Below the pieces are notes generated by a model. It worked only from the letters and a program-made list of their open reading frames with translations. It had not been told where the DNA came from and ran no database searches. Below, piece after piece: positions 11,603-61,947 of a DNA stretch of 64,000 nucleotides. The stretch is from Candidatus Phaeomarinobacter ectocarpi (GTDB lineage: Bacteria > Pseudomonadota > Alphaproteobacteria > CGMCC-115125). Position 1 is the stretch's first letter. The number at the start of each line of letters is the position of its first letter. Made by a program: the position numbers and the translations under genes. The DNA is taken from contig NZ_HG966617.1 of NCBI RefSeq assembly GCF_000689395.1, forward strand, positions 2,540,221-2,604,220, written 5' to 3'.

Positions 11603-13039
11603 CTATTCAACAGCCTTGAGCGCAGGCACCCGGCCATAGACATCATCAAAACGAACGATGTCGTCCTCACCAAAATAGCTGCCTGACTGCACTTCAATGA
11701 TAGAGAGCGGCATCTTGCCGGGATTCTCCAACCTGTGTTTTGCGCCAATTGGGATGTACACGGACTCGTTTTCAGCAACGAGATGCGTCTCCTCACCAAG
11801 CGTCACCTTGGCCGTGCCCCCAACAACGACCCAGTGCTCTGCACGATGATGGTGCATTTGCAGGGAAATGGCCGCCCCCGGCTTGATCATCAGATGCTTC
11901 ACCTGATGGCGTTCATCTGTCGCCAGGCTCTCGTAGAAGCCCCAGGGCCGGTAGACGCGCGCATGAACTTCCTGCTCCGGGCGACCTTCAGTCTTCAACC
12001 GCCCGACAATGGCCTTCACGTCCTGCACCCGATCACGATGAGCCACAAGCACAGCGTCGCCGGTCTCAACCACAATCAGATTTTCCACGCCCACTGTCGT
12101 GACAAGCCGACCTTCCGCCCGCACAAACGTATTGGCCGTGTCCTGAACCATCACGTCGCCGCTCAGCACATTGCCCTGACCATCTTTTTCACCGATGTCC
12201 CACAGCGCCGTCCATGAGCCGACATCGCTCCAGCCGATGTCTGACGGCACCACCACCGCATCCTTGGTGTGTTCCATAACCGCATAGTCGATGGAGTCAG
12301 ACGGGCAAGCCTCGAACGCTTCGCGATCAAGCCGCAGAAAATCCATGTCGCGGTTGCCACCGGAGACCGCCATCGCCGCCTGTCGCCAGATGTCCGGTGC
12401 CAAGGCTTCAAGTTCTGCAATCATCCGGTCCGCGCGGAACAAAAAGATCCCTGAGTTCCAGAAGTAGCGGCCATCGTCGAGATAGGTCTGCGCCGTTGCA
12501 GCGTCGGGCTTTTCAACAAAGGCATCCACCTTGCTGCCGCCGTGGTCGACGGCGTCACCGGAGCGGATATAGCCATACCCGGTCTCAGGTGCATCGGGCA
12601 CAATGCCGAACGTCACAAGCTTGCCCTCTTCAGCCAGCTTCGCACCGGTGGCGATGACGTCGAGAAACAGGTCAGGCCGGGCGATATGATGATCCGCCGG
12701 CAGCACGAGCATCAGCTCGTCCCGACTATGCGCCGCGCACAGAGCTGCAGCAGCTGCAATCGCCGGAGCGGTGTTACGACCCACTGGCTCAAGCATTTCA
12801 ACTTCAAGTTCGACGCCCGCATCCTGAAGCTCTGAGGCGACCGTAAACCGGTGCTCTTCATTGCACACGACGATCGGCGGCAGAAAACGATCTGCATCGC
12901 TCACGCGCAACGCGGTTTCCTGAATCATTGTCCGCTCGGATGTGAGCGCCATGAACTGCTTGGGATGGTGCGCCCGTGACGTTGGCCACAGGCGTGTCCC
13001 CGAGCCTCCGGACAGGATGACAGGACGGATGGGCTTCAT
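11603..13039 (-). CDS. manC: Mannose-1-phosphate guanylyltransferase / mannose-6-phosphate isomerase
   Basis: Bifunctional enzyme giving GDP-mannose. The N-terminal nucleotidyltransferase domain has LSGGSGTRLWPTSR (residues ~9-22), ending KQF, then FVEKPD and GWSDVGSW. The C-terminal cupin domain (about 370-470) has RPWGFYESL and QMHHHRAEHWVVVGGTAKV, the metal-binding type II phosphomannose isomerase pattern. 478 residues is normal. GDP-mannose is the substrate of the 3,5-epimerase at 26193 and of Gmd at 60415, which ties this gene to the locus. It is convergent with mlaC, with only 2 bp between the stop codons. Confidence 0.95.
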   Translation of the reverse strand: MKPIRPVILSGGSGTRLWPTSRAHHPKQFMALTSERTMIQETALRVSDADRFLPPIVVCNEEHRFTVASELQDAGVELEVEMLEPVGRNTAPAIAAAAALCAAHSRDELMLVLPADHHIARPDLFLDVIATGAKLAEEGKLVTFGIVPDAPETGYGYIRSGDAVDHGGSKVDAFVEKPDAATAQTYLDDGRYFWNSGIFLFRADRMIAELEALAPDIWRQAAMAVSGGNRDMDFLRLDREAFEACPSDSIDYAVMEHTKDAVVVPSDIGWSDVGSWTALWDIGEKDGQGNVLSGDVMVQDTANTFVRAEGRLVTTVGVENLIVVETGDAVLVAHRDRVQDVKAIVGRLKTEGRPEQEVHARVYRPWGFYESLATDERHQVKHLMIKPGAAISLQMHHHRAEHWVVVGGTAKVTLGEETHLVAENESVYIPIGAKHRLENPGKMPLSIIEVQSGSYFGEDDIVRFDDVYGRVPALKAVE

Positions 13040-17732: not shown

Positions 17733-17825
17733 CGTGTTGCCAACAAAGTTGAAGACCTCATGCAGTCGGCCACGAATCGAGTCGACGCCACCAACATTCT
17801 CCGAACTGACTAGACCAAAGGTCAA

Positions 17826-19757: not shown

Positions 19758-20273
19758 ATGAACCAACTCCATCCCATCCAACTTGGAAACGCGATTTCAA
19801 CTCACCAGCAGCTGCGACTGCAGCTCATCCGTGAATTCCCGGAAGCCGACGAGGAAACCCTCGCCGATACCGTCGAAGGAATAAGCGACTTACCGGAGCT
19901 GATTGCTGCTCTCATCAGGTCATCACTTGCCGACCGCGACATGGCGGATGCTCTCAAAGCAAGAATGGCAGATATGGCATCACGCCAGGCAAGGCTCCTG
20001 GAACGCGAACGCAAAAAACGGGCATTAGCAGCAAGCGCGATGCGCGACGCTGACATCAAGAAGATACTGAAATCTGACATCACCGCGAGCCTGCGCCCTG
20101 TTCCTCCAGCGGTATCCATCGAGGATGAGGGCGCTATCCCGGCGGAGTACTGGCGTACTCAACCACCCAAGCTTGATCGCAAGGAACTAAGAGACGTTCT
20201 GCTAAGTGGACAGGATGTTCCGGGAACAAAACTCACGCCACAAGACGACACGCTTTCAGTGAGGACGAAGTGA
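19758..20273 (+). CDS. Gp157-like phage protein
   Basis: A coiled-coil head (about 25-100; many Arg/Lys/Ala with RQARLLERERKKRALA) precedes a C-terminal part matching the siphovirus Gp157 pattern. That part has a beta strand with SLRPVPPAVSIEDEGAIPAE, then YWRTQPPKLDRKELRDVLLS and a closing G-x-x-V-P-G-T-K-L. Gp157 proteins lie in early phage recombination gene blocks; their function is not settled. ATG 19758 is chosen because GGAGG lies 6 bp upstream. The stop overlaps the Rad52-like start, so the pair is coupled, as in phage single-strand-annealing operons. 171 residues. Confidence 0.75.
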   Translation: MNQLHPIQLGNAISTHQQLRLQLIREFPEADEETLADTVEGISDLPELIAALIRSSLADRDMADALKARMADMASRQARLLERERKKRALAASAMRDADIKKILKSDITASLRPVPPAVSIEDEGAIPAEYWRTQPPKLDRKELRDVLLSGQDVPGTKLTPQDDTLSVRTK

Positions 20274-21604
20274 TGGGATTTTCACGCAATCAGATCAAAT
20301 CTCTTGTCGCACCGCTCAAAGCCAAAACAGTCAAAGTGAGATACGAAGACAACATACGACTGGCGTACCTCGAGGGCTGGCATGTCATCAAAGAAGCCAA
20401 TCGCGTGTTCGGTTTTGACGGATGGGATCGGCGAACACTTACACTTGAACAAGTCCAAGTCTTAAGGCGTGATCCGCTTTGGCATGCAACCTATCAGGCC
20501 AAGGTTCAGGTGATCGTGAAGACGAATACCCGTGACATCCTGCGCGAAGGAGTTGGTGTGGGACATGGGCACCATACCGATCAGCCACGGGCACGAGACA
20601 TGGCGCTCAAAGCCGCAGAGACAGACGCTACCAAACGGGCACTCTCAACATTCGGAAACCAGTTTGGCCTGGCGCTCTACGATCCTGAGCTCGCCGACAT
20701 TGATGGGTGCATTGATGATCGACAGGGGCAAAATTGGGTGTTGGTCAATCATGACGGCATGGCTCTTGGCCGTTTTGATCTACCAGGTGAGTTTTGCGGT
20801 GCCTATCGATCGCACCTAAACGCGATGGATTCATACAAGACCGCAATACGCCTATGGGCGTTGAACTACCCTGAGCTTGCCCGACTGATGCGCGAGGTGC
20901 CTTCGCTGAAAAACCAGGCCGGCATGCATTACGGCGAAATTCTTCAGCGAACCTATCAGCGAAAAATCGCCAATTGGCTTCAGGTAGCGGATCCCCCCGT
21001 TCAGGACCCTAACCAGCGTAAACCAGAAGAAGAACTAGCGCAGGCAAAAGATAGAAGCGACACCGAAATCACAAGTCCGACTTCAACGGCAGGACGCACG
21101 CCCAAAGAAGAGGACAAACCTGCCAACGGAAAGAAACACAGGGAAACGTCGAACAGGATTGATAAGTCCAAGCTCCATATAGGCGTTCCCCGTCGTGTCC
21201 GCGACAAAGCCCACCTCAAAAAAATAGCCGCACTTTCCTGCCTGGTCTGCGGGCGACGTCCCTCACAGGCTCACCATCTTACTTACGCCCAGCATCGGGG
21301 TTTGGGACAAAAAGTAAGCGACGAGTTCACCGTGCCGCTATGTGCGATCCACCACCGAGCGCTGCATGATGTCGGGAATGAAGAAAAGTGGTGGGCGCAG
21401 CATTCCATTGACCCGCTGCCAATCGCTCTGGGTTTCTGGCAAGCTCACAAAACTGGCGAGGTACTACCTCAGACGAACACCAACCCGAACGGGAGCGTAG
21501 AAAGTGCCCCTCCAAATAGAGATCGCTCTGTGGCACAATCAGATGCAGTACATGAGGAGTCCTCAGGCAGCACTCAGATCGTCTTAACCCCACCATCACC
21601 TTGA
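20273..21604 (+). CDS. Rad52/22-type single-strand annealing protein fused to a DUF968-like HNH zinc domain
   Basis: Residues ~10-160 match the Rad52/Rad22 family: VRYEDNIRLAYLEGWHVIKE, ANRVFGFDGWDRRTL, GHGHHTDQPRARDMALKAAE and ATKRALSTFGNQFGLALY. Such proteins anneal single strands in phage recombination. A low-complexity linker (~245-300) leads to a C-terminal zinc-type domain with CLVCGRRPSQAHHLTYAQ (about residue 322) and VPLCAIHHRALHD. This is the C-x2-C...H-H...C-x2-H-H layout of DUF968/HNH-like proteins. Fusion of the two is unusual. The start overlaps the Gp157 stop (TGATG), with GAGGA upstream. Confidence 0.78.
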   Translation: MGFSRNQIKSLVAPLKAKTVKVRYEDNIRLAYLEGWHVIKEANRVFGFDGWDRRTLTLEQVQVLRRDPLWHATYQAKVQVIVKTNTRDILREGVGVGHGHHTDQPRARDMALKAAETDATKRALSTFGNQFGLALYDPELADIDGCIDDRQGQNWVLVNHDGMALGRFDLPGEFCGAYRSHLNAMDSYKTAIRLWALNYPELARLMREVPSLKNQAGMHYGEILQRTYQRKIANWLQVADPPVQDPNQRKPEEELAQAKDRSDTEITSPTSTAGRTPKEEDKPANGKKHRETSNRIDKSKLHIGVPRRVRDKAHLKKIAALSCLVCGRRPSQAHHLTYAQHRGLGQKVSDEFTVPLCAIHHRALHDVGNEEKWWAQHSIDPLPIALGFWQAHKTGEVLPQTNTNPNGSVESAPPNRDRSVAQSDAVHEESSGSTQIVLTPPSP

Positions 21605-22234: not shown

Positions 22235-23206
22235 ATGATAAGTGACGCAACGACTTTGGTAACCGGGGGCGCTGGGTTTATCGGCTCGTTCCTTTGCGAA
22301 AAACTACTAGATGAGGGGAAACATGTTCTTTGTGTGGACAACTATTTCACCGGCAGCCGCGACAACATCCAGCACCTGCTGAGCAACCCACGCTTTGAGC
22401 TGATCCGGCATGACATCACCTGGCCGCTCTATGTCGAAGTGAACGATATCTATAACCTTGCTTGCCCGGCATCACCAATCCACTATCAGCACGACCCCGT
22501 GCAGACGACAAAGACCAGCGTTCATGGCGCCATCAACATGCTAGGCCTTGCAAAACGTGTGAACGCAAGAATTCTTCAAGCGTCCACCAGTGAGGTGTAC
22601 GGTGACCCTGCCGTTCATCCGCAAACGGAAGATTACTGGGGCAACGTCAACCCGATCGGGATTCGCGCCTGCTATGATGAAGGTAAGCGCTGCGCCGAAA
22701 CACTGTTCTTCGATTACTACCGGCAGCATAGTCTACGCATTCGGGTAGCTCGCATCTTCAACACCTACGGCCCTCGCATGCACGCTAGGGATGGTCGCGT
22801 GGTTTCCAATTTCATCGTACAGGCCCTTACCAGTCAGCAGATTACCCTCTATGGCGAAGGCTCACAAACCCGCGCATTCTGTTATGTCGACGATCTCGTA
22901 GATGGCCTGACCCGCTTGATGAACCAACCCGACAACTATCCCGGCCCCGTCAATCTCGGCAATCCATCCGAGTTTACTATCCGCCAGCTTGCGGAGAAGG
23001 TCATAGATATCACAGGCTCTTCATCGAAACTCAAATTTTTGCCGCTTCCCGCAGATGACCCAAAGCAACGCCAGCCGGATATCACAAAGGCAAAAGGCGA
23101 TCTAGCTTGGCAACCCAAGACCTCCCTCGATGACGGCTTGCGGAAAACGGTGGCGTACTTTGAATCATTGCTGTCGTCTGAAGCATTTCATGTCGCGGAC
23201 ACTTAG
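22235..23206 (+). CDS. uxs: UDP-glucuronate decarboxylase (UDP-xylose synthase)
   Basis: Extended SDR enzyme converting UDP-glucuronate to UDP-xylose. NAD motif [17 protein letters not shown] (about residues 8-24), then [15 protein letters not shown], the family marker [20 protein letters not shown], and catalytic Y-D-E-G-K with [28 protein letters not shown] is also typical. 323 residues is normal for bacterial UXS. It uses the UDP-glucuronate made by Ugd (9538). ATG 22235 lacks a clear ribosome site, so the start could be slightly different. It opens the main polysaccharide locus on the + strand. Confidence 0.93.
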
Positions 23207-25283: not shown

Positions 25284-26147
25284 CTATGAGGTGCTTTTGC
25301 GGAACCAGAAGCTTTGCGCACATCCCTTGTCCGCGAAGGGCAATCCGCTCAAATCAAACGCGCCACCGCGCTGCGCATAGTGGCCTGGCCACAGCACATC
25401 CGCACTATGTCCGGACAAGTAAATGTGAAGTAACGTCTGCTCAGCCCAAGGCCGGTGGCGGTCCGCCAGCCACTCCGCTGGATACTCATAGGGCAAAAAA
25501 ACATCGTGCACGTGAAAAACCACGCCGGCCGGGGCCATGGGTAGGAGGCGGGTGAAAACGGTCGTCACATCATTGCCCGCCGCCACTTGGTGGCTTGAAT
25601 CCACGAAAACGATGTCGTTCGGCCCAAAGCCGGATAACAGGTTCTCAAAATCCGAGGTCTCGAATTCCTGTTGATAGAGCTTGTCGACGAACCGGCCGAT
25701 TTCCACGCGCGGCATCGGGTCGATTGCTATGTGCTGTGATGCAAGCTGGCCGTCGCTGATGGCCTGGCGGATGATCCGCGTGCTGTTGCCGCAGCCAACC
25801 TCAAGGATGCGATCCGGCGCGAGCGAACGCACCATGAGGTAAAGGACCTCCGCGTCCGGAGTCTTGAAATAGCCGTTGTCCGGCTCATATAACCCTGGCG
25901 AGGTCCCGCCTGCCATCAGCCGCGCAAGGTCATTGCAATAGTGCTGATAGGCGCTGGAGAGTGGATGCGGATCAAACGCGCACATGCACTCAAGCAGCGG
26001 ATAAGCTGGGCCCTCAAAATGGCCACGCTCCGCCATCTGCTGAAGCCGCCGCCGCTCGCGATCTTCCTCGAGCGTCGTGTTCAAATGAAGCCCCACAGGA
26101 TTGAGCGCCAAGTTGAGAGCATTCTTGATACGCGAGCTGAGAGCCAT
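25284..26147 (-). CDS. Class I SAM-dependent methyltransferase (Methyltransf_24-like)
   Basis: AdoMet motif I ILEVGCGNSTRIIRQA (about residue 113), then HIAIDPMPR and DIVFVDSSHQVAAGNDVTT, the D-x-S-H pattern of the Methyltransf_24 group. 287 residues. The N-terminal ~90 residues are unassigned and helical. It follows the GDP-mannose epimerase on the minus strand with a 45-bp gap and is convergent with the FkbM gene at 24411. A role in sugar methylation of the polysaccharide is inferred from context. Confidence 0.8.
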   Translation of the reverse strand: MALSSRIKNALNLALNPVGLHLNTTLEEDRERRRLQQMAERGHFEGPAYPLLECMCAFDPHPLSSAYQHYCNDLARLMAGGTSPGLYEPDNGYFKTPDAEVLYLMVRSLAPDRILEVGCGNSTRIIRQAISDGQLASQHIAIDPMPRVEIGRFVDKLYQQEFETSDFENLLSGFGPNDIVFVDSSHQVAAGNDVTTVFTRLLPMAPAGVVFHVHDVFLPYEYPAEWLADRHRPWAEQTLLHIYLSGHSADVLWPGHYAQRGGAFDLSGLPFADKGCAQSFWFRKSTS

Positions 26148-26192: not shown

Positions 26193-27194
26193 CTAGACCG
26201 TCACCCGTTCGCCACGTTCCCGCAACTGTATCTGATCGTAAATCCAGGAATAAGTCTTCTCGAGCCCCTCTCTCAGCGAAATGCTTGGCGCCCAGTCGAG
26301 CTTCTGCTTGATGAGCATGTTGTCAGAGTTCCGACCGCGCACGCCCTGTGGCGCTGAAAGGTCATAATTCCGCTTCAGCTTCACGCCAGCGAAATTCTCC
26401 GCCAGATCCACAAGCTGATTGATCGTGACCAGCTCGTCGGAGCCAAGATTGAGGGGCTCTTCAATGCTTGAATTCATAATGTTGTAGGTGCCGTGCAGGC
26501 AATCATCAATGTACATGAAGCTGCGGGTCTGCTCGCCGTCACCCCAGATATCGATTTCATTGCGGCCCGAGAGCTTGGCCTCGATGACTTTGCGGCAGAT
26601 GGCCGCCGGTGCTTTTTCGCGGCCACCATCCCAGGTGCCTTCAGGCCCATACACATTGTGATATCGAGCCACCCGCGAAACGATGCCGAAATCTTCTGAG
26701 TAATGCCGACACATACGTTCTGAAAAGAGCTTCTCCCATCCATACCCGTCCTCAGGGTCAGCGGGATACGCATCGGATTCCTTGAGAGATGTCACTGCCG
26801 TTTCACGCTGCCGGTAACCAGGATAGACGCACGCGGAGGACGAGAAGAAAAACTGCTCCACCCGAAACTCACGCGCCGCCATGAGCAAATGGGTGTTGAT
26901 GAGAACACTCAGCATGCAGGCCGCTTTGTTGTTCTCGATGAACCCCATACCACCCATATCGGCCGCCAGGTTGTAAATCGCGCACGTGCCGTCCGCCGCC
27001 TTGCGGCAGTTGAGGAGGTCGTTCAGATCAAGCACTTGATTATCAGCCCAATCATGGCGCTGATACCAGGATTCCGGCGGCTTCACGTCAATGGCACGGA
27101 CACTCGTGTGTCCCTGATCCTTGAGGTAGTTAACAAGATGCCCGCCGATAAACCCGCCGGCGCCTGCCACCAGAACCGTTCCAGCCTTACTCAT
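26193..27194 (-). CDS. gme: GDP-mannose 3,5-epimerase
   Basis: Extended SDR. NAD site VLVAGAGGFIGGHLVNYL (about residues 7-24), YNLAADMGGMGFIENNKAAC, SSSACVYPGYRQRET and Y-G-W-E-K. The strongly diagnostic VYGPEGTWDGGREKAPAA matches the plant enzyme pattern nearly residue for residue as I recall it, as does QGVRGRNSDN near the end. The enzyme turns GDP-D-mannose into GDP-L-galactose (or GDP-L-gulose). Substrate comes from ManC. A TTG at 27206 is in frame, but ATG 27194 has GGAGAG close upstream. About 333 residues. Bacterial examples are uncommon and usually within polysaccharide loci. Confidence 0.9.
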   Translation of the reverse strand: MSKAGTVLVAGAGGFIGGHLVNYLKDQGHTSVRAIDVKPPESWYQRHDWADNQVLDLNDLLNCRKAADGTCAIYNLAADMGGMGFIENNKAACMLSVLINTHLLMAAREFRVEQFFFSSSACVYPGYRQRETAVTSLKESDAYPADPEDGYGWEKLFSERMCRHYSEDFGIVSRVARYHNVYGPEGTWDGGREKAPAAICRKVIEAKLSGRNEIDIWGDGEQTRSFMYIDDCLHGTYNIMNSSIEEPLNLGSDELVTINQLVDLAENFAGVKLKRNYDLSAPQGVRGRNSDNMLIKQKLDWAPSISLREGLEKTYSWIYDQIQLRERGERVTV

Positions 27195-27309: not shown

Positions 27310-28002
27310 TTAACGGGAGGCCCAAAGGTTGTTTTCGGTTAATGCCTGGCCAGGCGACCACGCCTCGCCAGTCACAGATGAAAATTTGAAACCGGCTGCG
27401 GACAAAATACGCGCCAGCTGCGCCGCAAATGCAGCGCCACTTTCGGGCAGCACTTCGACAATCACATTGTCCACCCGGGACAGGCTGGCTTTACAGCCTT
27501 CCAGCACCGCAAGCTCATATCCTTCCACGTCAATTTTCAAAAGCCTGATCCGCGGCATTTCATACCTGATAGCAAGGTCATCGACCGATACCAAGGGCAC
27601 CACAAACGGGTATGGCTGATCGTTGGGGCCAATGTTCGCAAGACTCAGCCGGGCCCGGTCCTGATCACTTTGATGTTGTAATGTGATGAAACCGTCTTCC
27701 TGTCCGACAGCGGCGCATATGGTGGTGATATTGCCAAACCCGCTGGCTGCGCTGTTTGTGAGTACCAAGTGGCAGTTGTGAGGCTGCGGATCAATGGCAT
27801 AGACATGCCCCTGCGCGCCTACTGAGTGAGCAGCAAGCAACGACAGCGTTCCAACATGCGACCCAACATCAATGGCGATGTCCCCGCTCCCAAGCAACCG
27901 TTCGAACAAAGCGGTTGTTGCAGGTTCCGTCACGCCAAACTGGATCAGCTCAAGCTGAGTCCATTCGCGCGGGTCAAGTAGCATGCGGATGCCTGGCTTC
28001 AC
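27310..28002 (-). CDS. FkbM family methyltransferase (true start probably further upstream)
   Basis: FkbM hallmarks: AIDVGSHVGTLSLLAAHSVG, HVYAIDPQPHNCHL, and RLLKIDVEGYELAVLEGCKA. The coordinates start at the first conventional codon, GTG 28002, but this cuts off a conserved-looking head. The frame stays open to 28149 and encodes LLRILGRAPGFRGKGWLQHV and RVVEVKPGIRMLLDPREW, much like other FkbM N-termini. There is no ATG, GTG or TTG in that stretch. A CTG at 28149 overlaps the upstream stop as CTGA and has GAGAGAG 7 bp before it; an ATT follows it. I favour that upstream non-canonical start. Last gene of the wzx operon. Confidence 0.82.
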   Translation of the reverse strand: MKPGIRMLLDPREWTQLELIQFGVTEPATTALFERLLGSGDIAIDVGSHVGTLSLLAAHSVGAQGHVYAIDPQPHNCHLVLTNSAASGFGNITTICAAVGQEDGFITLQHQSDQDRARLSLANIGPNDQPYPFVVPLVSVDDLAIRYEMPRIRLLKIDVEGYELAVLEGCKASLSRVDNVIVEVLPESGAAFAAQLARILSAAGFKFSSVTGEAWSPGQALTENNLWASR

Positions 28003-28145: not shown

Positions 28146-29324
28146 TCAGCTAAGTACTCTCTCAAGTGCGGCATCAAAACAGGCCTGACCTTGCGCGAAT
28201 GAATGGGCTTGATTGACCCTGGCGATGTCCTGCATGTCAAGACTGCGTGAGTTTAACACAGCAAGCCGCAGGCAGTCTTGCAATTCCTCTTCAGTGCCGA
28301 ACTGCCACCCTGTCTCGCCATCAAAGATCATGTTGGGAACACACCCACACAGGTTCGAAACGATCGCAGGCAAACCCGCCGCAAACCCCTCATTGACCAC
28401 AAGTCCCCATGTATCATCATCGGATGCAAGTACCTGGCAATCAGCCGCCGCGTAAAACGCCGGTAGCACGGTCTGATTCTGAAATCCCCAGAACCTGACC
28501 GGCAGCCCATATGACATGGCGACCGCCTCCAACTCACATTGCTCCGGCCCTGAACCGACAATCCAAAGCTGAGACCGGCCGACAAGATCCGGTTCGGCCG
28601 CAAGCATGCGGCGGTAAGCCTGAAGCAACATGCTGATCCTTTTCCGGCCGATGAGTTTGCCGACCGTTAGCAGAATCGTATCAGCAACGCCTGCCCCCGA
28701 CTGCCTCCGCAATCTCGCAGCCTCGCCGCTGCCCCGCGCCTCAGCCGCGTCAGAGCCGATGCGTGCCGTATCAACCATATGTGGCAGATAGTGAAGCCGC
28801 CGCGCCGGCACGCCATAATACTCCAAGTATTCCCGCGCCCGCGCACCCGGATAGAGGTAATGGGCCATCCGCGGCATAATCATGCGGTACGGCAGGTATT
28901 TGAGCAACTTCACGGCAGCGCTTCTGGGTGAATTTAGTATAGAGTCGCCACGCACAAACACCGGCAACTTCTGGCGCCGTGCAGCCAAAAGCGCCTGAAC
29001 GCTGGACTTTTTGTTCCAGCCAAGCACGACTAGCGCATCGAACCCACCTGCTTCCAGACGGGCACCAATTTCAGGCGTGTCACAACCTGAGAAACTAAGA
29101 TCCGGATGCTGAGCAACATTGTTGAGCCATTCGTGATGATACCCCTCGAGCAGAGGCGTATCCCACTCAAACTCGATATCAAAGCCCGCCCGCGCTTGGT
29201 CGGCCCCAGTTGCCTTAAGCGCGTAAAAAACCGTCAAGTCATGGTGCCGCGCCAGTGAAGCATACCACGGGCTGTAATATTGCACAGGATGGGTTGCGAC
29301 AAAGGCGATTCGGCGTCGGGTCAT
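28146..29324 (-). CDS. Glycosyltransferase, GT4-like
   Basis: N-terminal IAFVATHPVQYYSPWYASLA, then LLTVGKLIGRKRISMLLQAY, LWIVGSGPEQCELEAVA and VRFWGFQNQTVLPAFYAAAD. It continues with VLASDDDTWGLVVNEGFAAG, the E-x7-E-type nucleotide-sugar site of GT4 enzymes. 392 residues, normal. Its ATG overlaps the sulfotransferase stop (ATGA at 29321-29324), so translation is coupled. It probably adds one sugar of the repeat unit; the donor is not readable from sequence. Confidence 0.87.
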   Translation of the reverse strand: MTRRRIAFVATHPVQYYSPWYASLARHHDLTVFYALKATGADQARAGFDIEFEWDTPLLEGYHHEWLNNVAQHPDLSFSGCDTPEIGARLEAGGFDALVVLGWNKKSSVQALLAARRQKLPVFVRGDSILNSPRSAAVKLLKYLPYRMIMPRMAHYLYPGARAREYLEYYGVPARRLHYLPHMVDTARIGSDAAEARGSGEAARLRRQSGAGVADTILLTVGKLIGRKRISMLLQAYRRMLAAEPDLVGRSQLWIVGSGPEQCELEAVAMSYGLPVRFWGFQNQTVLPAFYAAADCQVLASDDDTWGLVVNEGFAAGLPAIVSNLCGCVPNMIFDGETGWQFGTEEELQDCLRLAVLNSRSLDMQDIARVNQAHSFAQGQACFDAALERVLS

Positions 29325-30301
29325 TCATGCATCGCCTTATCTTGATTCACTCTCAGCCAGTGTTGCAGGGGCCGGCCGAGCATCCGTTCGAGCTCAAGCA
29401 CATCGCCGCGCACCAGCGCGACAATGGCAGCCTTCTCGCCGGCGCTCAATTCAGGATAGGCCGGGCGGAAGAAAAGCTGTTCCATCACCCGCCGCACCTG
29501 CAACAGATCCTTCAACCTGTCAGCAACCGCCATACCCGCCCACTTCTTGATCCACAAATAGGGGCCGCGGGCAATCCATGTATAAAGCCGTGAATAAATA
29601 CGCCGTGCCTTCTCCGACTTTGGTTGAACGCCCTGCCGCGCATTACGCTTGCCTGCCGCCACTAGATGCGTCGATTCGAAAGTGTCAATGCCGAGGAATT
29701 GGGCTAGCTCGTCCAGGGTCGCCTGCCGCCGCTCCGTCACGTCTTCATGGCACCGGATGAAAAACTGGTCTACTGGAAATTCCGCGAACCACCTTTTTAG
29801 GTGTTTTGCGTAAAGCGCCGGTTCGAGCAATAAATCTGGATACTGCTCAATCGCCTCAAGCACGCTTGGCCGGGTGACCAGCGGCACCGCCTGATGAAAA
29901 TTCTGCCGCAGCAGATGCCAGTAGTGAGATTGTATCTGTGACACAGGGTCGCGCAAAATGGCGACAATGCGTGTGTGCGGAATAACAGTCTTCGCATGCA
30001 GGTGCGCGCGCGGAGATGCCATATACCTCACAGAGAAATCACAGCGGATGAGTTCATCCCCGCAACCAGAGAAATAAGCGGGGTATTCATCAAAGCGGTC
30101 CGCAAAATTCTCGTAATGAAGCGCGTTCAGCTCCTTGCGCGTCGGCATGAAAACCTGCGGATGCGCATCAAGCACGTTTGAGAGCCATGTGGTAGCGGAC
30201 TTTGGTGCACCGATGCCAAGGAGGTTCGGCAGGTGCTTGTCCGGGTCACTAGTCGCGCGTTGCGCCAACTCGGCAAGGCGAGGGTCGACATCCATACTCA
30301 T
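29321..30301 (-). CDS. Sulfotransferase family protein
   Basis: PAPS-dependent transferase fold. 5'-phosphosulfate loop LLGIGAPKSATTWLSNVLDA (about residues 27-46) and 3'-phosphate site IVAILRDPVSQIQSHYWHLL. Later CHEDVTERRQATLDELAQFL is as in Sulfotransfer_1 members. 326 residues. It is framed by two glycosyltransferase genes with ATGA overlaps on both sides, so it is part of the assembly operon. The product may carry sulfate esters. The PAPS donor can be made by CysNC at 61948. Protein tyrosine or lipid sulfation is an alternative, but context favours sugar. Confidence 0.85.
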   Translation of the reverse strand: MSMDVDPRLAELAQRATSDPDKHLPNLLGIGAPKSATTWLSNVLDAHPQVFMPTRKELNALHYENFADRFDEYPAYFSGCGDELIRCDFSVRYMASPRAHLHAKTVIPHTRIVAILRDPVSQIQSHYWHLLRQNFHQAVPLVTRPSVLEAIEQYPDLLLEPALYAKHLKRWFAEFPVDQFFIRCHEDVTERRQATLDELAQFLGIDTFESTHLVAAGKRNARQGVQPKSEKARRIYSRLYTWIARGPYLWIKKWAGMAVADRLKDLLQVRRVMEQLFFRPAYPELSAGEKAAIVALVRGDVLELERMLGRPLQHWLRVNQDKAMHE

Positions 30302-31581
30302 GATCGCGCCACCGCCCTATCAAAAATCCGGCATTCCTGCTGCGCCAGCTTTTCCGCCTCGCTAACCTGAATCTTTGCTGGTCCTGGACTAGGCACCCTT
30401 CCAGCGCCGCAAATCACCTCCCGCCACAGCCCCGCAAGGCTTGCCGCCGCATCCTCAAAACCTGCCTCACCATCTGGGAGAAGCCCGATCGCACATTGGG
30501 GGAAAGCACCAAGTGCCCGCTCAACCACGCTGTCCCGCCCCACGGCAGCCACCACCGGCTTCCCCATCTCGGCCAGAATCGCCAGTTTTGAGGGCCGGTA
30601 AGCCGGATCGTTTGACCCCAGCACGATGTTGAAATCCGCCCGAGAGGTGGCATCAAGCGCATTGAAATAAGGTATGCGGTCCCCTTGCTCTTGCACCGCC
30701 TCGCTGACACCGAATTCGCGGGCCGCAGCCGTGACAAAAGCCTGTGTCTCACGGTTCGAATATTTTGTGCCGACAAATTGCAACCGTACTGCACCGAAAA
30801 CATCAGGCCATTGCTGCCGTGCACTACTCAATGCCTTCATCAGCAGCCGCAAAAAATCAACGCTCTCAGCGCCCGCCCGGCCTGCATAGAACCCCGTGCA
30901 TGTCGTTTTATCGAACACGAGTGGGGTCTCAATAGCCTGCAAAACTTCAATGTCCTTAGGGTTGAATCCAAACGGCACTTCCGCCGCCGGAACATCCGCC
31001 AGGCCCGGATAGCGCCTGCGGAAGACATCAATATACTTCTGGCTGACCGAAATGATGCCGGACGCATGCGGAACCGTCATAGCCTCCAGCTTGCGGTGCA
31101 CCGCCCGCATAAACCGATGTTTGAGCTGTCGGCTGCGCTGCGAGTTGACGAATTCAGCGTTGAACCAGGGATCCTGAAAATCGAGCACGAATGGTACACC
31201 AAAGCGGCGCTGCCAATAGCGGCCAAGCGTCATGATCGGGAACTGTGTTGTGGAGATATAGATGAGGTCATACGTCCCGCTGGCCAGAAGCTTTGATCCG
31301 GCCCGTGCCAGAGCCACCCATCCACGCAGGCCGGAAGCAGTCAGGCCGAGATGTCGCGTCACATGTACGCCAAGCGCATCCACACGTTGGATTGGCAGGT
31401 CGTCGGGAACCGTTCGTGTAAGTCGCTCTTCAATTGGCCGCCCGGCGGTTTCAGGAGAGATCGCTAATATGGCAGGCTCCCACCCATACCGTGCATAAAA
31501 GTTCACACCGCCGCGCACCCTGTGCATATCCGCCGCATCTGTCGGCGGAAAATGGGGCGAGACAATGAGGAGACGGCGCAT
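30298..31581 (-). CDS. Glycosyltransferase, GT-B/GT4-like
   Basis: Starts MRRLLIVSPHFPPTDAADMH, the usual GT4 N-terminal strand and loop. FVLDFQDPWFNAEF and GIISVSQKYIDVFRRRYPGL lie in the N-domain. TGFYAGRAGAESVDFL begins the C-domain, with ADFNIVLGSNDPAYRPSKLA and EMGKPVVAAVG as the nucleotide-sugar region. An open frame reaches 31800, but the first 73 codons do not resemble the family and would overlap wzx, so ATG 31581 is used; no strong ribosome site is present. 427 residues. Stop overlaps the sulfotransferase ATG. Confidence 0.83.
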   Translation of the reverse strand: MRRLLIVSPHFPPTDAADMHRVRGGVNFYARYGWEPAILAISPETAGRPIEERLTRTVPDDLPIQRVDALGVHVTRHLGLTASGLRGWVALARAGSKLLASGTYDLIYISTTQFPIMTLGRYWQRRFGVPFVLDFQDPWFNAEFVNSQRSRQLKHRFMRAVHRKLEAMTVPHASGIISVSQKYIDVFRRRYPGLADVPAAEVPFGFNPKDIEVLQAIETPLVFDKTTCTGFYAGRAGAESVDFLRLLMKALSSARQQWPDVFGAVRLQFVGTKYSNRETQAFVTAAAREFGVSEAVQEQGDRIPYFNALDATSRADFNIVLGSNDPAYRPSKLAILAEMGKPVVAAVGRDSVVERALGAFPQCAIGLLPDGEAGFEDAAASLAGLWREVICGAGRVPSPGPAKIQVSEAEKLAQQECRIFDRAVARS

Positions 31582-31607
31582 AAGGGAAGCCCACTTGTTC
31601 ACAGCAT

Positions 31608-33113
31608 TCAGGGTTTGGCAGGCGGCAAGAACAACAACATCCCGAGACGCCTGCCCTGCGGCACATAATATAGAATGTCCCGCAGAGCGCCCGCATCTAT
31701 AACCCGGATCACAGCCAGATAGGTAGATGCACAGAGCCCAGCCGCACCGACAAACTGCCAGACCGTGTCCAGGCCAGATATCGCCGGCACCAGTTGCCAC
31801 CAGGTAACAGCCGCGAGGGAACCACTGGCAGCACAGGCTGCCAGCGTGCGCAGAACCGCACTAAGAGCCAGCACACCGCGCCCAACCAGCAGCGCTATAA
31901 GACCGGTGCAGACGCCCCCATAAACCACAGCAATCGTCTTTGCATATGCCAGAACTTCGCCCGACAGAAGAAGTGGTGCTAGCCCGGCCACATATCCCGC
32001 TAGAAGACTGAGTTGTGCATAGAGGACGATGCGCGGACCGATGCCCGTGAGAACAATCACGGTCAATGCCTGCAGACCAACACGGCCAACGCAGATGAGA
32101 GCCGCAACCGGAAGAAAAGCGGCGACTTCAACCCACCCCGACCCGAAAACAATCAGGACGGCTGCTTCGGGCTCAAGGATCAGCAGTGTCGCGGGCGGCA
32201 ATGCAATCCAAGCAGAGGCCCTTAACAACAGGCCAGACGCTTCACGCGCCTGCTGTGTGCCACGCTCCAGTTTCGAGAGTATCGGATAAAGCACAGTCAC
32301 CGCAGGCCCAGCAAAGGTTGCGGTGGACAATTGCCCAAGACCGATGGCACGCCCATAGATGCCATAAGCGGCATAGCCTTGACCTTGCGAGAGAAAGACG
32401 CTTTCCAGCAGCAGCCGCCCGCGCGTCAGGACCTCGGACGCGCTGCGGGTAATACCAAATCGCATGGCGGAAGCATAGGCCTTGAAATCGAAGTCCCAAG
32501 CAATAAGGCCACGCCGCGAAATGAAGAGGTCTGCGGCGAACGGCACCGGTACTAAGATCATGTGTGCCATAAGGGCAAGAACACCGAAGCCCGACAGCGC
32601 GAGACCGATCGCAACCCCGCCCGACAAAAGCACGCTGATACTCTTGAGAAGCCGCAGACGCCGCCAGTCCAGTTCTATCTGGAGAACAGTGCTCCATAGG
32701 ATGCGGGGCAGATTGAGTAGAATACCAATGGATCCTATTGCCAGATATGGTGCCAAGGGCGCCAAATTCTCAATCCAAAGAAAACCGGCAGCCACGCCAT
32801 TTACGATGACAAAGAGACATCCATGGAGGATCAACCCGAACGACCAGTGCCTTGCATACTGTAGGGTGTTATCGGTCTTCTGCCGTAGCGCATGCTCAAG
32901 AAAGCTCTGGATGGAAAATACATAAGTGAAGACAACGATGGCCTGGATGAGACCGAACTGGCCGTAGATCTGAGGCGTAAGTAGCCGTACCAAAATAAGG
33001 CTGATGGCCACCTGAACAATCTGCAGACTGATCGAGACACCAGTACCCCAGATCAGGGCCGACCTAGCGGTCGTTCTAAAAGATTTTGGTTCTCCTCCGG
33101 ACACGGGTGCCAA
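31608..33113 (-). CDS. wzx: Oligosaccharide flippase (Wzx-like)
   Basis: About 12-14 hydrophobic segments over 501 residues, with the polysaccharide-synthesis flippase pattern. It starts with ALIWGTGVSISLQIVQVAIS and LVRLLTPQIYGQFGLIQAIV; that L-x-P-x-x-Y/F-G motif near the second helix is characteristic. It moves lipid-linked repeat units across the inner membrane. The only Wzx candidate in the window. Start uncertain: TTG 33113 is the longest, and GTG 33104 is possible. It heads the minus-strand operon wzx, GT, sulfotransferase, GT, FkbM. Divergent from the GT gene at 33266. Confidence 0.85.
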   Translation of the reverse strand: MAPVSGGEPKSFRTTARSALIWGTGVSISLQIVQVAISLILVRLLTPQIYGQFGLIQAIVVFTYVFSIQSFLEHALRQKTDNTLQYARHWSFGLILHGCLFVIVNGVAAGFLWIENLAPLAPYLAIGSIGILLNLPRILWSTVLQIELDWRRLRLLKSISVLLSGGVAIGLALSGFGVLALMAHMILVPVPFAADLFISRRGLIAWDFDFKAYASAMRFGITRSASEVLTRGRLLLESVFLSQGQGYAAYGIYGRAIGLGQLSTATFAGPAVTVLYPILSKLERGTQQAREASGLLLRASAWIALPPATLLILEPEAAVLIVFGSGWVEVAAFLPVAALICVGRVGLQALTVIVLTGIGPRIVLYAQLSLLAGYVAGLAPLLLSGEVLAYAKTIAVVYGGVCTGLIALLVGRGVLALSAVLRTLAACAASGSLAAVTWWQLVPAISGLDTVWQFVGAAGLCASTYLAVIRVIDAGALRDILYYVPQGRRLGMLLFLPPAKP

Positions 33114-47523: not shown

Positions 47524-49341
47524 TCAGTGCACAGCCACCGTTTTGTTAGGCTGCCCGCTATCTGCACCTGTTTCCACCTTTGGCCGAGAGATGTCGTCAG
47601 GCCGGCTTATGAATGTGTTCCCGAGCACAAGCACATCCATATTGGTCCGCAGGAAGCAGTCGATGGCCTCCTCTGGCCGGGTGACAATCGGCTCGTTCTC
47701 GTTAAATGAGGTATTCAGCAGCATCGGTACGCCGGTCAACTCATGAAAGCGCCGAATGAGCCCGTAATACCTGCTATTTGACGCCTCCGTTACGGTTTGC
47801 AGGCGGCCTGTGCCATCTGCATGGACAACTGCGGGTATCGCAGCGTGTTTTTCCGGCTTGATCCCAAAGACCTTCATCATAAAAGGCACATCGTCATCTT
47901 CCTCAAACCACTCAGCCACATGCTCGCGCATGATTGAAGGGGCAAACGGCCTGAATGACTCCCGCCGCTTGATCTTGAGATTGAGAATGTCCTTCATGTC
48001 GCCCCGGCGCGGGTCACCCAGAATCGAGCGGTTGCCCAATGCCCGTGGGCCCCATTCCATACGTCCCTGAAACCAGCCGACCACTTTCCCTTCCAAGATC
48101 GCCGTCGCAGTCTTATCGAAGACTTCCTCAATCGGACTGTTGAGATTGACCGTGCAGCCACGCTCGGCAAAATCGCGGGAGAACCTCTCAACGACCTCGC
48201 CAATCTGCACATCGCTATAGCCGGGGCCGAGGTAAGCATTAGGCATTCCGGAGGCGGAAAAGTTGCCGCCAAGTTGCTGCCAGACATTAAGTGCAGCACC
48301 AATGGCACCACCCGCGTCTCCCGCGGCTGCCTGAATATAGACCCGCTCAAAACCCGTATTGCGCCGGATCTTGCCATTCGCTAGAGAGTTCATTGCGCAA
48401 CCGCCGGCAAGACACAGATTAGTACTCTGCCCACGGACCTTGAGAGCGTTGAGTAGGTTGAAGAGCGCGACCTCATAAATCACCTGCACGGAATGCGCGA
48501 TGTCTTTATGCACCTGCGCCAGCTCCTCGCCTGGTACACGCGCTGGGCCGAGCAGGTCTTCCAGCCGGTCGGCGAACAGAACACCAACCTCAGGTGATCC
48601 ATCCTTCCACTGATAGGGAATGTGCTCCCGCCCATGACGGAAATAGCGCTGATTCAGGGTAAAACGACCATCAGCTTCTAGATTCACGACATCTTCTAGT
48701 TTTGAAACAAATGTGGGCTGACCATAGGCCGTAAGCCCCATCACCTTGTACTCGTCACCGTAATTTCTGAAGCCAAGATATTGTGTCAGTGCCTGGTAAA
48801 ACGCACCCAGTGAATGGGGGAAAAGAACCTTATTGTGGATGACAAGATCGGTTCCATCCGCTACCCCCCACAAGGCACTAGCAAAATCGCCGAAGCCATC
48901 AACAGAGGCGACACAGGAACGATCAAAACCCGAGACGGCCGAGGCGGATACAAGATGCGCCCGATGGTGTTCAACACCATGCACTGCACCCGAAAACCCG
49001 TCATGCGGAAAAGCTTGCGCCAGATGGCCGGCGATATCATGCCGCTCAGACCGATTTTTTAACCTGTCGAGAATTGATTTAGGACTTGGAAGCCGGCGAG
49101 CTGCAAACAGTAGTCGCTCCTTGAGATTGGCGCGGCTATCCTGGTTGAGGGCGATATGGTCAATATCGCTCAGGCGCACGCCTCCTTGGTCCAGGCAGAA
49201 CTGGATTGCCTGTGAGGGAAACCCGGCCCAGTGCTTAATGCGCCGGAACCGCTCTTCTTCTGCAGCAGCGACGATACGCCCGTCACGAATCAGACAGGCG
49301 GATGAATCGCCATGGAAAGCATTCAACCCAAGGATCAGCAT
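47524..49341 (-). CDS. NodU/CmcH-family carbamoyltransferase
   Basis: 605 residues with both domains of the family. The N-terminal ASKHA-like part has MLILGLNAFHGDSSACLIRD, VEHHRAHLVSASAVS and ASVDGFGDFASALW. The C-terminal part has LCLAGGCAMNSLANGKI, PNAYLGPGYSDVQIGE and GRMEWGPRALGNRSILGDPR. The enzyme forms carbamoyl-AMP and transfers the carbamoyl group to a sugar hydroxyl, as in Nod factors. Its ATG overlaps the GT2 stop by 7 bp. A 96-bp gap separates it from the methyltransferase downstream. It probably adds a carbamoyl ester to a polysaccharide sugar. Confidence 0.92.
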   Translation of the reverse strand: MLILGLNAFHGDSSACLIRDGRIVAAAEEERFRRIKHWAGFPSQAIQFCLDQGGVRLSDIDHIALNQDSRANLKERLLFAARRLPSPKSILDRLKNRSERHDIAGHLAQAFPHDGFSGAVHGVEHHRAHLVSASAVSGFDRSCVASVDGFGDFASALWGVADGTDLVIHNKVLFPHSLGAFYQALTQYLGFRNYGDEYKVMGLTAYGQPTFVSKLEDVVNLEADGRFTLNQRYFRHGREHIPYQWKDGSPEVGVLFADRLEDLLGPARVPGEELAQVHKDIAHSVQVIYEVALFNLLNALKVRGQSTNLCLAGGCAMNSLANGKIRRNTGFERVYIQAAAGDAGGAIGAALNVWQQLGGNFSASGMPNAYLGPGYSDVQIGEVVERFSRDFAERGCTVNLNSPIEEVFDKTATAILEGKVVGWFQGRMEWGPRALGNRSILGDPRRGDMKDILNLKIKRRESFRPFAPSIMREHVAEWFEEDDDVPFMMKVFGIKPEKHAAIPAVVHADGTGRLQTVTEASNSRYYGLIRRFHELTGVPMLLNTSFNENEPIVTRPEEAIDCFLRTNMDVLVLGNTFISRPDDISRPKVETGADSGQPNKTVAVH

Positions 49342-50138
49342 TCGCGGTTCGGTCCTTTTTCGTCTGGCCTGCCACTCAGGCGCCTGTCCAGCAACTCAAG
49401 CGAGAGCAACAGCTCAGCGTAACAACGCTGCAAAGCATAATGCAGCCCGGCACGCCCATCTAGAATACACCCCTTCCAGAACAGGCAATAGCCTAGAACA
49501 AGAAGCGGACTAGGGATTGCCAGCAGCCGGATCTTGTCCTTCCAGCCACCTCCGCCATCAATTGCCAGAATGCGGTCGGCTTCCTTGCGGACATATGAAC
49601 GTTGAGAGCCGAGCCACCGCTCGATTGGCTTCCGGTCATCGTGAATAATACGCGAGGCCAGTCTTTTGACGGTCCCCGGCACCTCCACCCTATGCCCATG
49701 ACCGACGTCCCTGTAACGGGCGATGCCTGACCGGTAAAGCACCGTTCGCGGCGGATACAGCGTACCCGATAGCCTTTGTCCGTAAACCGCGTAGATGAAA
49801 GATGTTTCATAGCCGCTTATGTCACGCCCATCAGACAGGCTGCGCACTTCATCCTCGAATCCGTCGTCAAGCACATAGTCGGCGTCCATCGACAAAACCC
49901 AGCCTCTGGTCACATGGCCAAGCCCGAAATTGCATTGCTCAGCAAAACTGTCAAACGAACGTTGGATGACATCCACATTCTCGAAACCGGCCGCGATCTC
50001 CAGCGTGCTATCGGTGCTGCCGCTGTCTATCAGTAAAACCCGCCCAGCCCATGCGAGCCGTTCAAGGGTCCGCTGGATGTTTGCCTCCTCATTAAAAGTG
50101 AGGATCATCGCAGTGATTTCGCCGACGTCCATTTTCAT
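49335..50138 (-). CDS. Glycosyltransferase family 2 protein
   Basis: The only GT-A type transferase found. MILTFNEEANIQRTLERLAW (about residue 11), VLLIDSGSTDSTLEIAAGFE, and GWVLSMDADYVLDD carrying the metal-binding D-x-D. A C-terminal hydrophobic segment (LLAIPSPLLVLGYCLFWKG, ~225-243) may hold it to the membrane. The frame reaches 50198, but ATG 50138 overlaps the GT4 stop as ATGA, the pattern of this operon. 267 residues. The KdtX/WaaE-like subgroup (short GT2 with a C-terminal hydrophobic segment) is the nearest match. Confidence 0.88.
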   Translation of the reverse strand: MKMDVGEITAMILTFNEEANIQRTLERLAWAGRVLLIDSGSTDSTLEIAAGFENVDVIQRSFDSFAEQCNFGLGHVTRGWVLSMDADYVLDDGFEDEVRSLSDGRDISGYETSFIYAVYGQRLSGTLYPPRTVLYRSGIARYRDVGHGHRVEVPGTVKRLASRIIHDDRKPIERWLGSQRSYVRKEADRILAIDGGGGWKDKIRLLAIPSPLLVLGYCLFWKGCILDGRAGLHYALQRCYAELLLSLELLDRRLSGRPDEKGPNREC

Positions 50139-51292
50139 TGTGCCCCTGCACTCAATTCGGCGTATGTGCGCAACATTTGGTCGGCGATCCGCGGCCAAAG
50201 GTAGTCCCGGCGGACGGCAGCAACAGCATTCGCCGACATGCGCGCTAGTTCCTCTCGGTCTGTCAGAACGCCCGCGATGCCGGCACCCAGCACCTCAGGG
50301 CCGCCGGCACAAACGATGCCACTGTGGGTCCGGGCCACCATATCCGCTAGACCGACCTCCGGAGTGACGACTACGGGGCAGCCTGCTTGCATGGCTTCAA
50401 TGACCGCAACGCCAAAATTCTCTGACTGCGAGGGAAGCGCAAACACGCTCGCGCTGGCAAACAGCGCCCGTTTTTCACTCCCCGAGACTTCCCCGACAAA
50501 CCGCACCCTGTCAGCAAGCCCAAGCCGGGCAACGATACCATCAAGCACGCCCCTGTAGCCTTCCTCGTCGTTACCCGCAATCACAAGCTCGGCAGCGGGA
50601 ACATACGTTAACGCTTCAATGAGCCGGTCAATGCCCTTCTTCCATGAGATGCGGCCAAGAAACAAAATTACCGGCGCATTCCCAGACCCGCCCTGAGCGG
50701 CGTGTTGCACTGGCCCTTCTATGTCATCAACACCATTGGGAATGATGACATATCGGTGAATGGCCAGCCCGAATGCCTCAATCTCTGCCTTCTCTATTTC
50801 GCTGGTCACATGCAGGGCAGCAGCACCCTCGAGGTTGGCGCGGTCAAGACCATATATCCAGGCGCGTTTCAAAAACCCGCTCTTCTGCTGCACCAGCGTC
50901 CGGTCAATCATGCCCCTTGGTGCATGTACTAGCGGCACATCATGAAGTCGTGCAACCCGCCCCGCCTCATAGGAGGGCCATACGAATTGCGCATGAGTAT
51001 GCACTACGTCAAATTTCTTGATGTGGGCCCGCAGCGCCGTTCCCATGAGACGAGAATAGTAAAACCGCTGCCCTAGGGTCACCGCAGGAAAATAGGTCAC
51101 GGAAACCCCGCCCATCTCAACCGGGGTCGAGACGGGAACATCCGATATGCCGGCGCCATCAACATTTGTTGTATAGACTTCCACCTCGTGTCCCGCCGCT
51201 GCCAATGCGCCGCAAAGTCCGTGTACAGACCGTATAGGACCGCCATATCGCGTGGCCGGATAATAAGTTGCCGTGATATGTAGGATTCGCAC
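50135..51292 (-). CDS. Glycosyltransferase, GT4
   Basis: Textbook GT4: MRILHITATYYPATRYGGPI, then VVHTHAQFVWPSYEAGRVAR, APRGMIDRTLVQQKSGFLKR and HVTSEIEKAEIEAFGL. The C-domain has VILFLGRISWKKGIDRLIEA, RVRFVGEVSGSEKRALFASA and LPSQSENFGVAVIEAMQAGC, with the E-x7-E-like donor site. 385 residues. It lies 27 bp after the methyltransferase at 51320 and overlaps the GT2 gene by ATGA. Confidence 0.93.
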   Translation of the reverse strand: MRILHITATYYPATRYGGPIRSVHGLCGALAAAGHEVEVYTTNVDGAGISDVPVSTPVEMGGVSVTYFPAVTLGQRFYYSRLMGTALRAHIKKFDVVHTHAQFVWPSYEAGRVARLHDVPLVHAPRGMIDRTLVQQKSGFLKRAWIYGLDRANLEGAAALHVTSEIEKAEIEAFGLAIHRYVIIPNGVDDIEGPVQHAAQGGSGNAPVILFLGRISWKKGIDRLIEALTYVPAAELVIAGNDEEGYRGVLDGIVARLGLADRVRFVGEVSGSEKRALFASASVFALPSQSENFGVAVIEAMQAGCPVVVTPEVGLADMVARTHSGIVCAGGPEVLGAGIAGVLTDREELARMSANAVAAVRRDYLWPRIADQMLRTYAELSAGAQ

Positions 51293-60414: not shown

Positions 60415-61461
60415 TTAGGCTGTCCGGGCTGCACGCGCCAAATCTGCTTCTACCATATCCGCAACTAGTTGTTGAAAGGTGACCTGCGGTGCCCATCCCA
60501 GTTCATCACGAGCCTTACCGGCATTACCCAGTAGCGAGTTAACTTCAGCAGGGCGGAAGAACTTGGAATCCACTTCAATCAGCAGGTCACCGGATTTGGC
60601 ATCCACGCCCTTTTCTTCAACACCATGCCCGGACCATTCCATGGTCCGGCCGACATGAGAAAAAGCCAGTTCAGCGAATTCACGCACACTGTGGTCCTGT
60701 CCTGTCGCCAGCACATAGTCCGAGGCTTCTTCCTGCTGCTGCATGAGCCACATGCCTTCAACATAGTCACGCACATGCCCCCAGTCACGCTTGGCATCCA
60801 GATTGCCAAGCTGCAAGGGTTCACCTACCCCATGATGGAGATGCGCAACCCCGATGGTGATCTTACGGCTCACAAAATCCTCACCACGGCTGGGACCTTC
60901 ATGATTGAACAGAATGCCGTTAGATGCGTGGAATCCATAGGCCTCACGGTAATTGACCGTGGTCTCAAACGCATGGTGCTTCGAGATGGCATAGGGGCTT
61001 CGGGGCTGGAACGGCGTTGTCTCGCTCTGCGGCATTTCCTGGACATTACCGTACAATTCAGACGTTGACGCTTGATAGAAACGCACGTGCTCGCCCATGC
61101 CGAGCAGACGGATGGCTTCGAGCAATCGCAAAGTGCCCAAAGCATTTACATTGGATGTGTACTCAGGCTTGTCAAAACTAATTTTTACATGGCTTTGCGC
61201 GGCAAGGTTGTAGACCTCATCAGGAAGAGAGGCTGAGAGCGCCTGCGCCAGGCTGGTGCTATCCGTCATGTCGCCGGTGTGGAAGACGATTTCATCCCGC
61301 ACACGTTCCGCACCCAACAGCTCTTCCAGACGGCCGAGTGATGAACTCGAAGAGCGCCGGACAACACCATGCACCGCGTACCCCTTCTCGAGCAGAAGGC
61401 TTGCGAGATATCCGCCATCCTGGCCGGTTATCCCGGTAATCAGCGCTGTCTTTTTGGACAT
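60415..61461 (-). CDS. gmd: GDP-mannose 4,6-dehydratase
   Basis: ALITGITGQDGGYLASLLLE is the NAD site, RRSSSSSLGRLEELL and HTGDMTDSTSLAQAL follow, ASTSELYGNVQEMPQSETTP is the diagnostic GMD loop, and Y-A-I-S-K carries the catalytic pair. It makes GDP-4-keto-6-deoxymannose, the precursor of GDP-fucose, GDP-rhamnose and others. ATG 61461 begins MSKKTALITGITG; the longer frame from 61497 is unlike the family. About 348 residues. No Fcl or RMD reductase gene adjoins it, so the next enzyme is elsewhere or unrecognised. It may share a 486-bp upstream gap promoter. Confidence 0.94.
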   Translation of the reverse strand: MSKKTALITGITGQDGGYLASLLLEKGYAVHGVVRRSSSSSLGRLEELLGAERVRDEIVFHTGDMTDSTSLAQALSASLPDEVYNLAAQSHVKISFDKPEYTSNVNALGTLRLLEAIRLLGMGEHVRFYQASTSELYGNVQEMPQSETTPFQPRSPYAISKHHAFETTVNYREAYGFHASNGILFNHEGPSRGEDFVSRKITIGVAHLHHGVGEPLQLGNLDAKRDWGHVRDYVEGMWLMQQQEEASDYVLATGQDHSVREFAELAFSHVGRTMEWSGHGVEEKGVDAKSGDLLIEVDSKFFRPAEVNSLLGNAGKARDELGWAPQVTFQQLVADMVEADLARAARTA

Positions 61462-61947
61462 GTATCGTAGGTCTCTCAAATTCTCAAACTGTTGCAAGGC
61501 TTAAAGCAGCGAATGCGGGAATTGGCAACAGTTTGCTGTCCAACCAAATCCAATACGACCGCAAAGGTACATGGATCAGTGTCTGGACAAGAAGTTGAAG
61601 CTCACGGTTAGGCAAGTGTGTTTTAAGCATGTGGATCATTGATGTGATAAAGCAACTCGTCCATATCCTGGCCTTCCGGCCAATCTTTCATCAGCTATTG
61701 ACCGGGCCTTTGAAAGACTGAGCAGCGGGACAATCTCATGCCCATATCTGCTTAGCAGATCATGATCATTCGCATTTTTGGCCTGCAAACGCGCCTACGT
61801 GCGAGCATTGAAAGCAATTGCTGGCTTTATCCACCACCGTGGCCGCCATTGACGCAACATGACATCACTCGCCAGCTACCTCGACGTGTCAAAAAGGCAC
61901 AATTTTGCAGTTAACAAAAGCAGCAACCAGGCCGGATGAATGGAGGA
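61462..61947. other. 486-bp gap without a recognisable gene
   Basis: No open frame of useful length. Small symmetric elements occur (GGCC-TTCC-GGCC near 61672; a GATCATGATC palindrome near 61759) but no consensus promoter or known RNA. The gmd promoter presumably lies at the left end. The cysN stop is at 61948. Confidence 0.4.

Follow-up and report, generated by a model that had tools for sequence, protein, structure and literature searches.

A GDP-mannose 3,5-epimerase family protein encoded in a polysaccharide locus of Candidatus Phaeomarinobacter ectocarpi

Introduction

A 64,000-nucleotide stretch of DNA from Candidatus Phaeomarinobacter ectocarpi (hereafter the window) carries at 26193-27194 a gene that a preliminary description read as a plant-like GDP-mannose 3,5-epimerase (GME) in a bacterial polysaccharide locus. 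This raises the question of whether the protein is a GME, how unusual such an enzyme is in a bacterium, and what it may contribute to the polysaccharide.

Results

Gene call and family membership

Read in reverse complement, 26193-27194 is a single open reading frame on the minus strand, running from ATG to stop and encoding 333 residues, while a plus-strand reading is ruled out by the presence of stops. The coordinates first proposed are therefore exact, the strand being minus. An alternative in-frame TTG start exists at 27206; we prefer the ATG at 27194 because a GGAG, noted by eye, lies just 5' of it. Scanning the gene block for promoters gave two against 3.9 expected, and Rfam and tRNA searches across the whole window returned no match.

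Both segments on which the preliminary description relied, GTWDGGREKAPAA and RGRNSDN, are found in the protein, and the plant chains 2c59 and 8sg0 have GTWKGGREKAPAA and RGRNSDN. Neither motif occurs in five GDP-L-fucose synthase (Fcl) sequences or in the four other sugar SDRs of the window. The best matches among PDB sequences are plant GMEs, with phmmer E-values from 3.6e-100 (Arabidopsis) to 3.8e-99, and the first non-GME match reaches only 1.1e-25, so that the motif matches lie far beyond chance. The query is 48.2% identical to Arabidopsis GME over 313 columns, 24-27% to the five Fcl, and 20-27% to the UXS, GalE and Gmd of the window.

Functional residues taken from the review PMC8787198 were mapped onto the query through the alignment, and all eight are identical: S143, C145, Y174, K178, N203, K217, R243 and R306 of the Arabidopsis enzyme correspond to S120, C122, Y151, K155, N180, K194, R224 and R288. 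The query thus has the Ser...YxxxK triad (S120, Y151, K155), the acid/base pair of the epimerization (C122 and K194) with the Cys-acidifying R288, and the equivalents of the substrate-diphosphate Arg243 and of Asn203 (R224 and N180); its NAD-binding GxxGxxG/A motif consists of G11, G14 and G17. Across 109 homologues, C145, Y174, K178, N203, K217, R243 and R306 are kept without exception, and the S143 position holds Ser in 108 of them and Thr in the remaining one. The NCBIfam search of the query matched no GME model, and no curated cut-off is therefore reached by it.

An AlphaFold model built from a 25-row alignment has a pLDDT of 85.5 and a pTM of 0.88, with some loops at pLDDT 60-70. When this model was submitted to Foldseek, the top 14 rows were all plant GME chains, with TM (query) values of 0.83-0.89.

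Phylogeny

Two trees were computed, in which two copies of the query (L001 and L090) were left out, as they were from the neighbor counts below, so that 109 of 111 GME-bearing loci were used; L087 was omitted from alignment A1. The first tree, of 121 rows including Fcl, UXS, GalE and Gmd, places the GMEs apart from these families, which stand there on long branches. Owing to these branches, GalE, UXS and Gmd were omitted from the second tree, whose 61 rows were chosen to comprise 41 of the 109 GME rows, 12 of 20 rows from the Verrucomicrobiota phylum, five Fcl, two plants and the query. In it, the 56 GMEs are split from the five Fcl with a support of 100/100. The phylogenetic check suggested in the preliminary description thus groups the query with the GMEs; its subclade there is large and bacterial, and it shows no particular affinity to the plant enzymes. 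This subclade holds 37 of the 61 rows, and no characterized enzyme was identified among them; the plant enzymes and the presumed Methylacidiphilaceae enzymes fall outside it, and the tree does not settle in which order the GME lineages diverged. Taken together, the sequence comparisons, the residues of the active site, the trees and the modelled fold support the assignment of the protein to the GDP-mannose 3,5-epimerase family, as originally proposed.

Distribution among bacteria

In a scan of genome contigs, at least 580 of at least 589 candidate stretches encode a relative (E 1e-3). The best 80 of these share 65-71% identity with the query, and their records carry the labels of ten phyla, although many of them are metagenome bins whose phylum labels may err; all 80 fall within the 98-row clade of the query in the first tree (SH-aLRT 99). 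A homologue is present in 20 of the 289 genomes sampled from the class, the query's own included, and in 28 of 194 genomes from the phylum of Chthoniobacter (both E 1e-60). It is also found in 37 phage records (E 1e-30), every one of them named as a cyanophage or marine phage, and in four plasmid records (E 1e-50). The three other genomes of the genus lack a GME and, short matches aside, the whole 22-36.5 kb stretch, which indicates that members of the genus differ in whether they carry the locus.

The view that the gene is notable as plant-like or unusual does not hold up against this distribution. In 2011, 43 bacterial GME homologues had already been counted (PMC3220709, in the part cited), and the first bacterial enzyme to be characterized, MfGM35E from Methylacidiphilum fumariolicum SolV, was described in 2019 (PMC6678494, likewise in part). 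Since relatives are widespread in bacteria and one of them has been characterized, the protein counts as a normal representative of an established family.

The polysaccharide locus

The gene belongs to a co-directional minus-strand block that opens with a Wzx-type polysaccharide transporter (31608..33113; PF13440). There follow a family 4 glycosyltransferase (listed as 30298..31800; PF13579/PF13439), whose translation probably begins inside the listed frame, near 31581, a sulfotransferase (29321..30301; PF13469/PF00685) and another family 4 glycosyltransferase (28146..29324; PF00534), the sulfotransferase gene overlapping the glycosyltransferase gene on each side by 4 bp. An FkbM-type methyltransferase gene (27310..28002; PF05050) lies directly 5' of the GME gene across a 115-bp gap, and a Methyltransf_24-type methyltransferase gene (25284..26147; PF13578) lies directly 3' of it after 45 bp.

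As the preliminary description had stated, a ManC (mannose-1-P guanylyltransferase / mannose-6-P isomerase; 11603..13039, minus strand) is encoded 13 kb from the GME gene; besides its Pfam matches it scores 710 bits with TIGR01479 (about 11630-13030) for a cut-off of 372.95. On the plus strand at 22235..23206 lies a UDP-glucuronate decarboxylase-like SDR, which we take to be UXS from its 68% identity to an annotated GME neighbor elsewhere; its homologues adjoin GME in other genomes. Further minus-strand genes encode a NodU/CmcH-type carbamoyltransferase (47524..49341; PF02543/PF16861), an adjoining GT2 glycosyltransferase (49335..50198; PF00535), and a GDP-mannose 4,6-dehydratase (Gmd; 60415..61497; TIGR01472, 500 bits for a cut-off of 415), a competing user of GDP-mannose. 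Since the genome has no recognizable Fcl, Gmd probably feeds the synthesis of some sugar that is not GDP-L-fucose. The wider locus includes Wza, Wzc, O-antigen-ligase-type and Wzy-type proteins, a bacterial sugar transferase, and many more glycosyltransferases and methyltransferases, and the Pfam and TIGRFAM matches of these neighbors agree with the claim of a bacterial polysaccharide locus containing ManC. The GME block contains a sulfotransferase gene and the edge of the locus a gene for a bifunctional CysN/CysC (61948-63870), which together suggest that the polysaccharide is sulfated.

Between ManC and the GME block, a prophage-like remnant (15616-21604) encodes DUF5681, a ParB-domain DNA methylase, an HTH regulator, Siphovirus Gp157 and Rad52/DUF968. 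An SMP-30/gluconolactonase gene (18495-19382) lies within this stretch, about 7 kb from the GME gene.

GME neighborhoods in other genomes

Neighbors were counted as best matches to window proteins of at least 80 bits in the flanks of the 109 GME loci. Homologues of UXS were found near GME in 30 of the 109 loci, of the carbamoyltransferase in 20, of GT2 in 18, of UGD in 15, of Gmd in 5 and of ManC in 4, all of these counts being lower bounds because many flanks are short and only 50 of the loci have 5 kb on both sides. Given the numbers for ManC, Gmd and UXS, the neighborhoods do not themselves indicate GDP-mannose. The sulfotransferase, a homologue of which was seen in the same flanks of 0 of the 109 loci, was rejected as a conserved partner of GME. 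Two apparent fusions of 827 and 828 residues (L097 and L098) were taken as artefacts in which, by eye, a low-complexity Arg/Gly/Ala-rich N-terminal extension precedes an internal Met; a UGD homologue lies at the site of this extension.

UXS and the carbamoyltransferase occur together in 15 of the 109 loci, mostly of Reyranella and near relatives, and these cases are therefore not independent. In Reyranella-type loci, homologues of UXS, GME, GT2 and the carbamoyltransferase are clustered; in the window, the carbamoyltransferase and GT2 stand 20 kb from GME. An Azospirillum plasmid (36%) and cyanophage S-SCSM1 (28%) also have weak carbamoyltransferase matches near GME. At the genome level, PF16861 occurs in 11 of 19 GME-bearing and in 5 of 20 GME-lacking class genomes (Fisher two-sided p 0.054), which is suggestive only, the GME-lacking genomes being hand-picked by size, G000 excluded, and several GME-bearing genomes coming from one family (f64). 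Tentatively, and with considerable doubt, UXS, GME, GT2 and the NodU-type carbamoyltransferase might be a recurring functional set that provides alphaproteobacterial surface glycans, such as those of Reyranella, with an O-carbamoylated unit of L-galactose or L-gulose (or mannose). This would be the polysaccharide counterpart of bleomycin's L-gulose/carbamoyl-mannose disaccharide. Such a unit could also carry sulfate here, in view of the sulfotransferase encoded within the GME block and of CysNC at the edge of the locus.

Discussion

Proposed function and alternatives

The gene very probably encodes a bacterial GDP-mannose 3,5-epimerase whose L-sugar product would enter the polysaccharide of the Wzx/Wzy-type locus. 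Conversion of GDP-mannose to GDP-L-galactose, with GDP-L-gulose as a by-product, is the likely reaction; this activity, the product ratio and the incorporation into polysaccharide are what we infer, the observations themselves being the sequence and its residues, the position in the trees, the modelled fold, the presence of ManC and the kind of locus. In the proposed pathway, ManC would supply GDP-mannose, C4 of which would be oxidized by tightly bound NAD+ with the help of Y151, K155 and S120. The C122/K194 pair would then invert C5 and afterwards C3, and re-reduction of C4 would yield GDP-L-galactose and some GDP-L-gulose. A glycosyltransferase of the same locus would finally add the L-sugar to the exported polysaccharide; GDP-L-galactose is not a known substrate of any of the neighboring glycosyltransferases.

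The same fold and chemistry could in principle serve another NDP-sugar, and the bacterial subclade may epimerize, for example, a UDP-sugar or another GDP-sugar. That UXS-like (30/109) and UGD-like (15/109) genes are commoner beside GME than ManC (4) or Gmd (5), and that no characterized member was identified inside the query subclade, speaks for such a substrate. We nevertheless consider it improbable, since the active-site residues, among them the Arg for the substrate diphosphate and the Cys/Lys/Arg set, do not vary between the plants and the query subclade, and the genome itself encodes ManC; genes of the GDP-mannose pathway often lie elsewhere in a genome, which weakens the argument from neighbors. 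The presence of Gmd raises the further idea that the enzyme substitutes for GDP-L-fucose synthase (Fcl/GMER) by using the Gmd product, the more so as the genome has no Fcl above the cut-off, the best match being the GME itself at 117 bits and the next scoring 54.6 bits. An Fcl is expected to have His and Lys at the base and Cys-acidifying positions (PMC8787198, in the part cited), and all five alphaproteobacterial Fcl do, whereas the query has Lys (K194) and Arg (R288); with 119.3 bits for the Fcl model NF047922, whose cut-off is 500, and a separate clade supported at 100/100, a role as Fcl substitute is very unlikely. Residues, models and trees likewise rule out that the protein is itself an Fcl, GalE, UXS or Gmd.

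A plant-like bacterial vitamin C route fed by the GME can be credited with hardly any probability. It would make use of the SMP-30/gluconolactonase gene about 7 kb away and of an ALO-type lactone oxidase encoded in the genome, but ALO, the one pathway enzyme that the search covered, is present in all four genomes of the genus although three lack GME (4/4 vs 1/4), so that its presence is independent of GME, and the GME gene sits within a polysaccharide block. The preferred reading, a GME supplying an L-sugar to this polysaccharide, extends a family of which very few bacterial members are characterized by another well-supported bacterial enzyme whose polysaccharide setting is clear; it changes no concept. 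Glycan analysis would bear on the entry of L-galactose or L-gulose into exopolysaccharide by the GME route, which the work cited here proposes for lipopolysaccharide without showing it.

Comparison with known enzymes

For one bacterial homologue, the cited part of PMC6678494 reports proven activity, with GDP-Man:GDP-L-Gal:GDP-L-Gul at 80:15:5, and proposes roles in lipopolysaccharide and antibiotics; kcat/KM values of known enzymes are about 2-9 per s per mM (PMC6678494/PMC8787198, in part). MfGM35E is 50.5% identical to Arabidopsis GME and, by its published description, shares the catalytic residue set of the query, which is also bacterial (PMC6678494, in part). Its presumed relatives in our sample (L138-L141), from genomes of the phylum of Chthoniobacter, are 52-55% identical to the query, outside whose subclade they fall, and 49.8-50.8% identical to Arabidopsis GME; with a Cys-acidifying Arg at residue 281, matching MfGM35E as partly described in PMC6678494, we infer that they represent the family of the Methylacidiphilum enzyme.

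The GMEs of Arabidopsis thaliana (2c59) and Myrciaria dubia (8sg0) share with the query 48% identity, all functional residues and the predicted fold, and differ in their plant lineage and their role in vitamin C and the cell wall. The third residue of the glycine motif is Ala in the plant enzymes and Gly in the query, and plant YGLEK is replaced by YGWEK; as L138-L141 also have YGWEK, this difference need not affect activity. BlmG of the bleomycin pathway, compared with the query through its published description only, is 42% identical to Arabidopsis GME and is hypothesized to make NDP-L-gulose (PMC6678494, in part), differing in that it serves an antibiotic pathway.

Cyanophage GMEs, one gene for which is noted in the cited part of PMC9602691 (S-SCSM1), are 45-47% identical to the query in the rows listed and accompany surface-glycan gene sets, one with a carbamoyltransferase; they differ in being phage-borne and in lying in a different subclade. 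In cyanophage S-SCSM1, an annotated wcaG RNA (L120, 2890-2976) lies just 5' of GDP-mannose sugar genes that include Gmd, Fcl and GME. On the Azospirillum plasmid (L118, 10602-12978), GME directly follows a nucleotide-sugar dehydrogenase that passes the cut-off of the TIGR03026 subfamily only.
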